This document shows positions 13,022-15,143 of a stretch of DNA of 64,000 nt, piece after piece. The notes below the pieces were generated by a model. The model was not told the origin of the DNA and made no database searches. It saw only the letters and a program-made list of their open reading frames with translations. The position numbers were made by a program, and so were the translations under genes. Source of the DNA: Prevotellaceae bacterium MN60 (GTDB lineage Bacteria > Bacteroidota > Bacteroidia > Bacteroidales > Bacteroidaceae); assembly GCA_900199555.1 (NCBI GenBank), contig FZQZ01000003.1, positions 124,001 to 188,000 of the forward strand, written 5' to 3'. The first letter of the stretch is position 1. Each line of letters begins with the position of its first letter.

Positions 13022-13816
13022 CTAAACGCTCACCTCCGCCTTAATATGTGGCCATGGGTCGTAGCCCTCCAACTGGAAGTCCTCGAACTTAAAGTCGAAG
13101 ATGCTCTTCACGTCGGGATTGATGATCATGCGTGGCAGAGGGCGTGGCTCACGCGTCAGCTGCAACTTTGCCTGCTCTATGTGGTTCAGGTAGAGGTGCG
13201 TGTCACCCGTGGTATGGATAAAGTCGCCAGCCTTCAGTCCAGTCACCTGTGCCATCATCTGCAACAGCAGGGCATACGAGGCGATGTTAAAAGGCACACC
13301 CAGGAAGGTGTCTGCCGAGCGCTGGTATAGCTGCAGCGACAGTCGTCCGTCAGCCACGTAGAACTGGAAGATGGTATGACATGGTGGCAGCGCCATCTTG
13401 TTTACCTCTGCCACGTTCCATGCCGACACAATCATACGACGCGAGTTAGGATTATTCTTCAGCTGGTCCACCACATACTGTATCTGGTCGATGGTGCCAC
13501 CGTTATAGTCGGGCCATGAGCGCCACTGATGTCCATACACTGGTCCCAGCTCACCGTTCTCGTCGGCCCACTCGTTCCAGATGCGCACCCCATTCTCCTG
13601 CAGATACTTCACATTGGTGTCACCCTTCAAGAACCACAACAGTTCGTAGATGATGCTCTTCAGGTGCAACTTCTTCGTGGTCAACAGTGGGAAACCATCC
13701 TCTAGGTTGTAGCGCGACTGTGTACCAAAGATGCTGATGGTGCCAGTACCCGTACGGTCGCCCTTCTGTGTACCCTCTTTCAGGATACGGTCAAGTATGT
13801 CTAAGTATTGCTTCAT
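13022..13816 (-). CDS. thyA: Thymidylate synthase
   Basis: Methylates dUMP to dTMP with methylene-tetrahydrofolate. The length of 264 residues equals that of the E. coli enzyme. Catalytic Cys146 sits in ALPPCHTIFQFYV. The phosphate-binding Arg21 in GDRTGTGT, NSRRMIVSAWN and the QRSADTFLGVPFNIASYALL block are all present. The start codon overlaps the end of the upstream methyltransferase gene by 26 nt, so the two are probably cotranscribed, with folA downstream. Confidence 0.97.
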   Translation of the reverse strand: MKQYLDILDRILKEGTQKGDRTGTGTISIFGTQSRYNLEDGFPLLTTKKLHLKSIIYELLWFLKGDTNVKYLQENGVRIWNEWADENGELGPVYGHQWRSWPDYNGGTIDQIQYVVDQLKNNPNSRRMIVSAWNVAEVNKMALPPCHTIFQFYVADGRLSLQLYQRSADTFLGVPFNIASYALLLQMMAQVTGLKAGDFIHTTGDTHLYLNHIEQAKLQLTREPRPLPRMIINPDVKSIFDFKFEDFQLEGYDPWPHIKAEVSV

Positions 13817-15143
13817 ATTCGTTGGGTATATGAGTCGTTTTTATTCTCCATTCTTTAGGATACAGATTATTGGCACGCGTGCCTATATTCTTCATCTCGC
13901 CGAGTCGGTAGCCCATAAATCCTACCTCCACAATGCCCCTCGGCGTATCTTCGGGTAGCACCAATGCCTCGCCACGCAGGTAGGCGATAGCCTGCTGATA
14001 GGAAAGGTTGACTATTTTCGAAGGTACGTGGGTACGGGGGTCAGCCTCTTCGAGGCCGAAGGTACGAGATGTGTTTCTGCGCTCTTTCTTTTCTCGGCTA
14101 GAGGTATTCTCGTACCCCCGCACCTCCGTACCCCCGTTCCCCCGAGAATCGTTTCCCTGGGCTTTCCGCACCACACACATAAACAGTCCCTCACCCCTTG
14201 TTATTCCGGGGATAAAGCGATATACGGGTTCGTTGAATCCGTCAAGCAGAGAGCCTGTGATGTTCCATTCCGGCTTTGTCTCTACGGGCAGCACTTCGGC
14301 GCCCAGCTCCTCCATCATCCAGCGCACGTTCTCCTCGTTCTCTTTCGTGTTAAACGTGCAGGTGCTATATACCAGCAGTCCGCCGTCGTTCAGGCACGCC
14401 CATGCGTCGCTCACGATTTCGCGCTGCAGTTTCCAGCACTTCTCCACCTGTTGTGGACTCCATTCGCGGATGGTAGCCTCGTCCTTACGAAACATACCCT
14501 CTCCCGAGCAAGGCACGTCGCATAGTATCAAGTCGAAGCGCTGTTTCGATTTACGGTAGTCTTTGGGATACAGGTTCGTCACGATATGGTTGTCGTATCC
14601 CCATTTCGTTACGTTCTCCTTCAGGATATTCGCCCTGTTGCGTATCGGCTCGTTGGAGTATAGCACCCAGTTCTCAGGCAGCACACTACGCAGCAGTGTC
14701 GATTTGCCACCCGGAGCCGCACACATATCGAGCGCCATTCCATCACTCCTCGCTCCTCGCTCCTCACTCTGCGTTTCTTTGTCCCCCCTCCAGTGGGAGG
14801 GGGTTAGGGGGAGGCTTCTCAACACCTGATCCAGAAACATCGATGCAGCCTCCTGCACATAGTAACAGCCGGCATGCAGCAGTGGGTCCATGGTAAAGTT
14901 AGGGCGTTTAGGCAGATAATATCCATTCTCGCACCAGGGCACCTGTTCCCCACCCACTACGCTCGTCACTCCACACTCCTCGTTGTCCCCCCTCCAGTGG
15001 GAGGGGTCGGGGGAGGCTTTCTTAGGGTTCAGTCGTATGCTCACAGGCGTCTCCTCTTCAAACGCCTTCATATAGCGTTCAAAGCGTTCTTCGCCCATCA
15101 GTTGTCGCGTGTATGTTGTAAATGCCTCAGGTAGTTGTGTCAT
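13791..15143 (-). CDS. NSUN/RsmF-type rRNA cytosine-C5 methyltransferase with three repeat-derived insertions
   Basis: SAM-dependent m5C methyltransferase of rRNA (or tRNA). It has 450 residues from the ATG at 15143; an upstream extension to 15191 runs through the promoter. The SAM site ALDMCAAPGGKSTLLRS, the catalytic DVPCSGEGMFRKD and the YSTCTFNTKENE motif are intact, and an RsmF-like C-terminal domain follows. Three segments absent from ordinary family members are repeat-encoded and in frame. These are about residues 42-65 (PDPSHWRGD), about 109-134 (LTPSHWRGDKETQ) and about 332-377 (NTSRTFGLEEADP). All lie between conserved blocks, so the enzyme may still work. A TACTTTTG box 8 nt before the ATG suggests a nearly leaderless transcript. 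Confidence 0.9.
   Translation of the reverse strand: MTQLPEAFTTYTRQLMGEERFERYMKAFEEETPVSIRLNPKKASPDPSHWRGDNEECGVTSVVGGEQVPWCENGYYLPKRPNFTMDPLLHAGCYYVQEAASMFLDQVLRSLPLTPSHWRGDKETQSEERGARSDGMALDMCAAPGGKSTLLRSVLPENWVLYSNEPIRNRANILKENVTKWGYDNHIVTNLYPKDYRKSKQRFDLILCDVPCSGEGMFRKDEATIREWSPQQVEKCWKLQREIVSDAWACLNDGGLLVYSTCTFNTKENEENVRWMMEELGAEVLPVETKPEWNITGSLLDGFNEPVYRFIPGITRGEGLFMCVVRKAQGNDSRGNGGTEVRGYENTSSREKKERRNTSRTFGLEEADPRTHVPSKIVNLSYQQAIAYLRGEALVLPEDTPRGIVEVGFMGYRLGEMKNIGTRANNLYPKEWRIKTTHIPNEYEAILRHT
14014..14151 (-). repeat. Composite repeat B, in frame inside the methyltransferase gene
   Basis: 138 nt (46 codons) with the same core as the intergenic copies at 12781 and 18187: TTCGAAGGTACGTGGGTACG at one end, the GTCAGCCTCTTCGAGGCCGA hairpin, and the inverted CGTACCCCCGCACCTCCGTA end. 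On the coding strand it reads as Arg/Ser/Thr/Pro-rich linker residues. Confidence 0.75.
14741..14820 (-). repeat. Simple repeat plus CCCTCC palindrome, in frame inside the methyltransferase gene
   Basis: CACTCCTCGCTCCTCGCTCC is followed by TCCCCCCTCCAGTGGGAGGG and GGTTAGGGGGAGGCTT. It is translated as LTPSHWRGDKETQ plus SEERGARSDG, placed just before the SAM-binding ALDMCAAPGGKS block. Confidence 0.7.
14949..15020 (-). repeat. Second simple repeat plus CCCTCC palindrome in the methyltransferase gene
   Basis: The same two-part structure as at 14741-14820 (CTCGTCACTCCACACTCCTC, then CCCCCTCCAGTGGGAGGGG with GGGGGAGGC), giving PDPSHWRGD in the same frame, in the N-terminal domain before VPWCENGYYL. 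Confidence 0.7.

Follow-up and report, generated by a model that had tools for sequence, protein, structure and literature searches.

The window analysed here is a stretch of DNA of 64,000 nucleotides (G000:C7:124001-188000, where G000 is the 2.74 Mb genome to which it belongs). On its minus strand, it encodes an RsmF-type rRNA methyltransferase of 450 aa (13791..15143), a gene already proposed in an earlier note on this sequence and now borne out by an open frame of 450 codons, Pfam domains, the alignment of orthologues and dN/dS ratios. Three Pfam hits exceed their cut-offs, namely the RsmF N-terminal, the RsmB/F methyltransferase and the RsmF PUA-like domains. Because the NCBIfam RsmF equivalog model scores 170 bits, below its cut-off of 588, we keep the class at RsmF-type and leave the target base unspecified. 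The end of the gene overlaps by 26 bp with a thymidylate synthase gene (thyA, 13022..13816, minus strand), and a dihydrofolate reductase gene (folA, 12247..12732, minus strand) follows downstream on the same strand, which suggests that the three genes form one operon. Judged by RsmF, the closest named relative is Prevotellaceae bacterium HUN156, and the host is thus no Rickettsia; many of the other near relatives are, going by their titles, rumen metagenome genomes.

Repeat stretches in the RsmF gene

Three stretches of this gene, together about 97 codons long, consist of repeats from two families: a hairpin element of ~110-150 bp, which we call element A, and a palindrome of ~35 bp with a tract of 7-bp period, which we call palindrome B. 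In plus-strand coordinates, element A occupies 14014..14151 and encodes residues 331-377 (SRGNGGTEVRGYENTSS...EADPRTHVPSK), between the methyltransferase and PUA-like domains. The other two stretches, at 14741..14820 (plus; residues 108-135, LTPSHWRGDKETQ..., directly ahead of the conserved ALDMCAAPGGKS block) and at 14949..15020 (plus; residues 42-65, ASPDPSHWRGDNEE...), are each made of the palindrome CCCTCCAGTGGGAGGGG adjoining a CTC-rich tract with a 7-bp period. All three are in frame and clear of the key blocks, as had been claimed, since none of them touches a conserved block when the orthologues are aligned.

The earlier note had also placed copies of these repeats outside genes in the window. 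This is correct for element A, which recurs on the plus strand in the thyA/folA intergenic region (12785..12982, with B-like palindromes nested inside) and between genes at 18188..18303, where a B-like palindrome follows. It does not hold for palindrome B, whose third near-identical copy (15514..15541, plus strand) lies in frame near the C-terminus of a neighbouring gene of 847 aa (15411-17954), while only looser variants, related by eye, occur between genes. At 15514, the palindrome is read in a different frame, as SLPQPLPLEGSR instead of the PSHWRG of RsmF, and palindrome B alone therefore does not set the reading frame. Its exact form is seen mainly as a local cluster: of the four genomic places with the core CTCCAGTGGGAG, three fall within ~730 bp in the window and one on contig C13.

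A gene with three insertions might be a decaying pseudogene that tolerates them, but this is highly improbable given its uninterrupted frame and its overlap with thyA, suggestive of an operon, and it is contradicted by the dN/dS ratio of the RsmF core, which is 0.069 in comparison with HUN156 and lies at 0.05-0.08 for those six of the eight nearest relatives that give a finite dS; the gene is under purifying selection. An AlphaFold2 model built with 64 sequences (mean pLDDT 68.8, pTM 0.65) has the RsmF-type structures 3m4x, 3m6w and 2frx as its top structural matches. Its pLDDT drops below 50 at residues 45-59, 115-132 and 331-375, that is, over most of each of the three inserts, but it does so likewise at residues 91-96 and 424-450, which are conserved and contain no inserts. 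From the low dN/dS, the low pLDDT and the structural matches, we predict flexible inserts in an enzyme that is very probably functional.

The window contains further repetitive sequence. A TTGACCA tract with a 7-bp period (18620-18656) lies inside a neighbouring gene of 753 aa, near its C-terminal end, and another dispersed, AT-rich repeat family (ACGACCACGAATT...CGAATTA) forms clusters at 11884-12213 and 22159-22511, in both orientations. In addition, two neighbouring genes are 95 percent identical over 115 bp of first codons and upstream DNA (17874-17988 and 20756-20870) and 96 percent identical over 51 bp just beyond their 3' ends (15366-15416 and 18522-18572), which is perhaps the result of recent gene conversion.

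Element A across the genome

A genome search with the RsmF-gene query returned 29 matches, including itself, and 40 of 43 first-look candidates were scored. After removal of the palindrome-B copy at 15514 and the merging of two pairs as single copies, 26 A-type places remain, all of which were examined; element A, for which the description as a dispersed repeat is accurate, thus occurs at no fewer than 26 places, including RsmF. Full copies are hairpins of ~110-150 bp, or longer if another repeat is nested in them. Units of 8 bp (GTACCYCC) make up part of their sequence, and the inner hairpin has the form CAGCCTCT...GAGGCTG. Terminal inverted repeats are present in the form of the outer stem of a 13-copy consensus, with 16 predicted pairs. 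The folding energies of all seven copies compared (five from G000 and two from G034) beat those of all 200 shuffles, with z between -3.8 and -8.9. As compensated changes are seen in just 2 of the 37 pairs of the consensus hairpin (covariation term +0.52), support for the structure comes from conservation and folding energy.

In 11 of the 26 places, element A is in frame within a gene. Ten genes are concerned. Besides RsmF and KsgA, they encode the CCA tRNA nucleotidyltransferase, which has the element at two places, a PPDK-N protein, a sensor of the histidine-kinase type, one DUF5686 protein, one DUF3987-like protein (assigned via a scanned homologue that scores 26.3 bits, below the cut-off of 27), two DUF5675 proteins, of which one was scanned and the other looks nearly identical to it by eye, and an M15 peptidase, which carries the element at its C-terminal end. 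Not all of these cases are independent, because the two DUF5675 genes are near copies of each other. Ten of the 11 in-frame copies are read in the same frame, as in RGNGGTEVRGYENTSS with its core GT-x-V, the exception being the DUF5686 copy. The RsmF gene is hence not the single special case it had been taken for. The remaining 15 places are apparently outside genes, judged by inspection of reading frames and Pfam matches without a gene caller; one of them (L122:14294) could belong to an HU-type gene if that gene has an alternative, extended N-terminus. In a scan of 20 neighbouring frames, of which five gave no Pfam match, no pair resembled the two halves of a single broken gene.

Given that the sequence can form a hairpin and that the frame is preserved, the segments might be cut out of the RNA or the protein in the manner of introns or inteins. 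We regard this as very unlikely: no Rfam family reaches its gathering score in 12700-18500 of the window, an insert that keeps the frame requires no removal, and there are also genes with in-frame tracts of 36-54 bp that lack the full hairpin. In the Rfam search, weak matches of microRNA models to a G/C-rich palindrome were taken as chance.

The same sites in relatives

With three of the 110 RsmF loci left out for a length below 381 aa, the comparison has 107 rows, of which 103 are distinct. Across these, the block at 70-104 always comprises 35 aa, the PUA block 56-57 aa and the block at 138-326 between 187 and 210 aa, while the N-terminal block varies from 25 to 65 aa, partly owing to the choice of start codon. 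In the 103 distinct orthologues, the three linkers are 12-45, 14-52 and 24-113 aa long, respectively. Those of the window gene measure 29, 33 and 53 aa against medians of 17, 17 and 45, which adds up to 12 + 16 + 8 = 36 residues more than the median. The earlier estimate of about 90 extra residues was an overcount, since in relatives these linkers are occupied by different, often repeat-like sequence, as in GERREERGERREERG (L065), LTPNSSLLTPHSSLLT (L101) and LSTLNSQLSTL (L077). In the 107 rows, short-period tracts are present in 63 of 321 linker segments, compared with none of 321 controls of the same length from the block at 138-326; for short hairpins, the counts are 52 and 11, and for a 15-mer shared with the gene's own flanks (up to 1.5 kb), they are 5 and 0. 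By these sequence comparisons, the RsmF linkers are a general hot spot whose fill differs between species and not the peculiarity of a single odd gene. In the RsmF gene of G007 (L019), we also observed a fourth insertion site, with ~20 additional residues (IALQRHTLKERAPHSDHWSE) ahead of the NITGSLL motif in the methyltransferase domain.

The alignment also bears on whether the segments could simply be ordinary, conserved linker sequence of the family. All RsmF orthologues have a C-linker, and in several distant ones it is longer than here, but the linkers average 0.08-0.19 identity to the reference, compared with 0.66-0.83 in the core blocks, and the exact motifs GGTEVRG and PSHWRG occur in 1 of the 103 distinct orthologues, the query itself. 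These values contradict this explanation, which we consider very improbable. Orthologues from other species lack these particular residues and fill the same linkers with other sequence; with the low dN/dS, this means that neither of the two outcomes which the earlier note named as refuting came about.

The near relatives illustrate these differences in content. None of the three inserts is present in RsmF of HUN156, where the C-linker contains two B-like palindromes and the middle linker a tract with 7-bp period. A part of 29-38 bp of this C-linker matches six other places in the HUN156 genome, while the remainder (query bases 1-110 of 156) has no match elsewhere in that genome. Four proteins from a large database search, mostly metagenomic, give further cases, and two of them, P0003 and P0004, carry other repeats than the window RsmF at one linker each. 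P0003 agrees with the window RsmF in 331 of 332 core residues, but its middle insert is replaced by LLLTSPEGEGN, and P0004 agrees in 347 of 347, with AAPLNPPHWGETK... in place of element A, a sequence approximating the HUN156 linker. The C-linker of P0004 is in turn that of P0007 save for one residue, and P0007 and P0008 have 350 of 358 core residues in common but different C-linkers. P0003 and P0004, both metagenome proteins, could derive from chimeric contigs, which we consider because P0006, from the same search, looks chimeric. The HUN156 linker shows that the P0004 linker is real, although it says nothing for its combination with this core. When RsmF residues 326-380 were compared with 5.8 billion proteins, with hits limited to 0.55-1.75 times the query length, nine proteins were found: four RsmF proteins with E <= 1.3e-23 and five relatives of the DUF3987-like protein with E values of only 0.37-0.86.

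Other A-bearing genes were compared in the same way. For KsgA, 24 of 30 loci could be anchored, and none of the 23 others carries element A: 21 have a short loop, one (L148) a slightly longer one, and one (L132, in G022) a different insert. The latter is itself a repeat with 59 matches in the G022 genome, including itself, one of which lies inside the G022 CCA gene. In KsgA of the window genome, the element sits between parts that match solved KsgA structures, by sequence match only. For the PPDK-like protein, 20 of 30 loci were anchored and all 19 others are without element A. The A peptide of the CCA enzyme is found in none of 29 other loci, of which one (L185) is truncated ahead of the third site; the G022 enzyme has a B-like first insert in common with the window genome and a second insert of its own. 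Among 60 genomes, 36 of them of the genus (own genome included), element A was found only in the own genome and in G034, that is, in 1 of 35 other congeners, where it takes the form of a related, more regular hairpin. At one of 14 G034 loci inspected, this hairpin lies in frame in DnaG, between matched primase parts; the other loci mostly have no long frame reading through it.

Proposed origin of the inserts and known parallels

These comparisons are probably best explained by the insertion or copying of dispersed repeat families into three length-variable linkers of RsmF, where they are likely retained only if frame and fold survive. Short dispersed repeats, at least one of them a hairpin element, would be copied to new places, either by a transposition-like insertion or by copying or conversion between repeats. 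Copies that land in genes would persist only in frame and in tolerant loops or ends, with those that break frame or fold purged by selection, and the retained segments would be translated as flexible loops. Swaps at sites already occupied may be explained by gene conversion or recombination between strains.

It is conceivable, if rather doubtful, that no mobile element is involved at all, and that linkers were swapped by homologous recombination in their conserved flanks while the repeats spread via gene conversion or slippage. The pairing of the window core with the C-linker of P0007 in P0004, the nearly identical linker in HUN156 and the divergent linkers of P0007 and P0008 are all in line with such a scenario, and many linkers are short-period tracts, which slippage can produce. 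However, it leaves unexplained the hairpin of ~110 bp at the KsgA, PPDK-like and CCA sites, which is absent from every anchored relative.

If element A is inserted, it might be a REP sequence moved by a RAYT-type (IS200-like) protein. A Y1_Tnp protein is encoded at G000:C14:2615-3595, on a contig with four A places, of which three are nearby (C14:4849, 5884 and 7717). Orthologues of this protein with 83 percent identity are, however, encoded in G001 and G009, two genomes in which no element A was found. The match to the NCBIfam REP transposase model reaches 39.3 bits, under the model's cut-off of 80 bits. None of 11 RAYT-like loci (G000 and G034; flanks of ~1-2 kb) is directly flanked by element A, the one copy in these flanks being 1.25 kb from the gene. 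A RAYT protein as the mover is thus unsupported, and we judge it improbable; no mobilising enzyme was found at these loci. Target-site duplications gave no clear signal either: for 27 copies of element A, with ends placed by eye, the longest word shared by the flanks averages 4.74, compared with 4.46 in shuffled pairs, and 34 of 500 shuffles reach the observed value.

Returning to insertion or copying of repeats, several known systems resemble what we observe. REP/BIME sequences with their RAYT genes are likewise short, dispersed palindromic repeats, and the genome has RAYT-like genes, but element A occurs both between genes and, in frame, within them, and no RAYT-like gene is directly flanked by it. 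MITEs share with it the short length, the inverted ends and the lack of a visible gene of their own, although for element A no parent transposon was identified and target-site duplication is not evident. For the tracts, a likeness exists to heptamer direct repeats (TAACTGA), which are described from Beggiatoaceae, Cyanobacteria and some Bacteroidetes, mostly in intergenic regions, with some inside reading frames and those within genes mostly at protein ends (PMC4679880). The tracts have the same 7-bp period and also lie partly in reading frames, but they are based on another heptamer and fill internal linkers as well.

The closest parallel, already drawn in the earlier note, is to the palindromic elements of Rickettsia; it holds well and extends to the nine further genes. 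To our knowledge, palindromic elements that code for protein are described mainly from Rickettsia and its allies. These bacteria are intracellular, and weak selection is the usual explanation offered. According to a review, the Rickettsia elements are palindromic repeats of ~150 bp, in frame in unrelated genes, with several families per genome (PMC10969869). Element A likewise is palindromic, ~100-150 bp long and in frame in unrelated genes at sites empty in orthologues, a likeness of form and placement. Differences are the other phylum, the stems built partly of 8-bp units, the companion palindromes and 7-bp tracts, and the filling of the same sites by different families from one species to the next. 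In the literature searched, from which subscription papers were mostly beyond reach, we found no description of in-frame palindromic elements for Prevotella or Bacteroidota; to this extent, the view that the phenomenon is undescribed for the group stands. By this analogy, the in-frame repeats are likely a Rickettsia-type outcome in another phylum, surprising in scale: scattered repeats are likely rewriting proteins in a gut bacterium near rumen Prevotella, as in Rickettsia.

If gut Bacteroidota do indeed show this outcome, with ksgA, dnaG and the gene of the CCA-adding enzyme among those affected, non-coding repeats would be a more general source of new protein segments. As the fill of one linker can differ between near-identical strains, both the pace of change and the filter exerted by selection could be directly measured. 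More tentatively, and with less confidence than in the insertions themselves, the several repeat families in relatives of rumen Prevotella might reflect an ongoing, genus-wide rewriting of fixed loop sites in core information-processing enzymes, with whole linker cassettes swapped between otherwise identical alleles and the same sites used repeatedly, as a Bacteroidota counterpart of protein-coding palindromes.

As a separate observation, 5 of the 11 HU-HIG DNA-binding genes above the cut-off in the genome (G000 C5:2307, C10:45344, C15:104469, C22:7370 and C22:116241) have element A within ~300 bp, with seven copies in total. Two of these five loci have common flanks and may represent one duplication. 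This proximity is a possible clue to what carries or binds element A.
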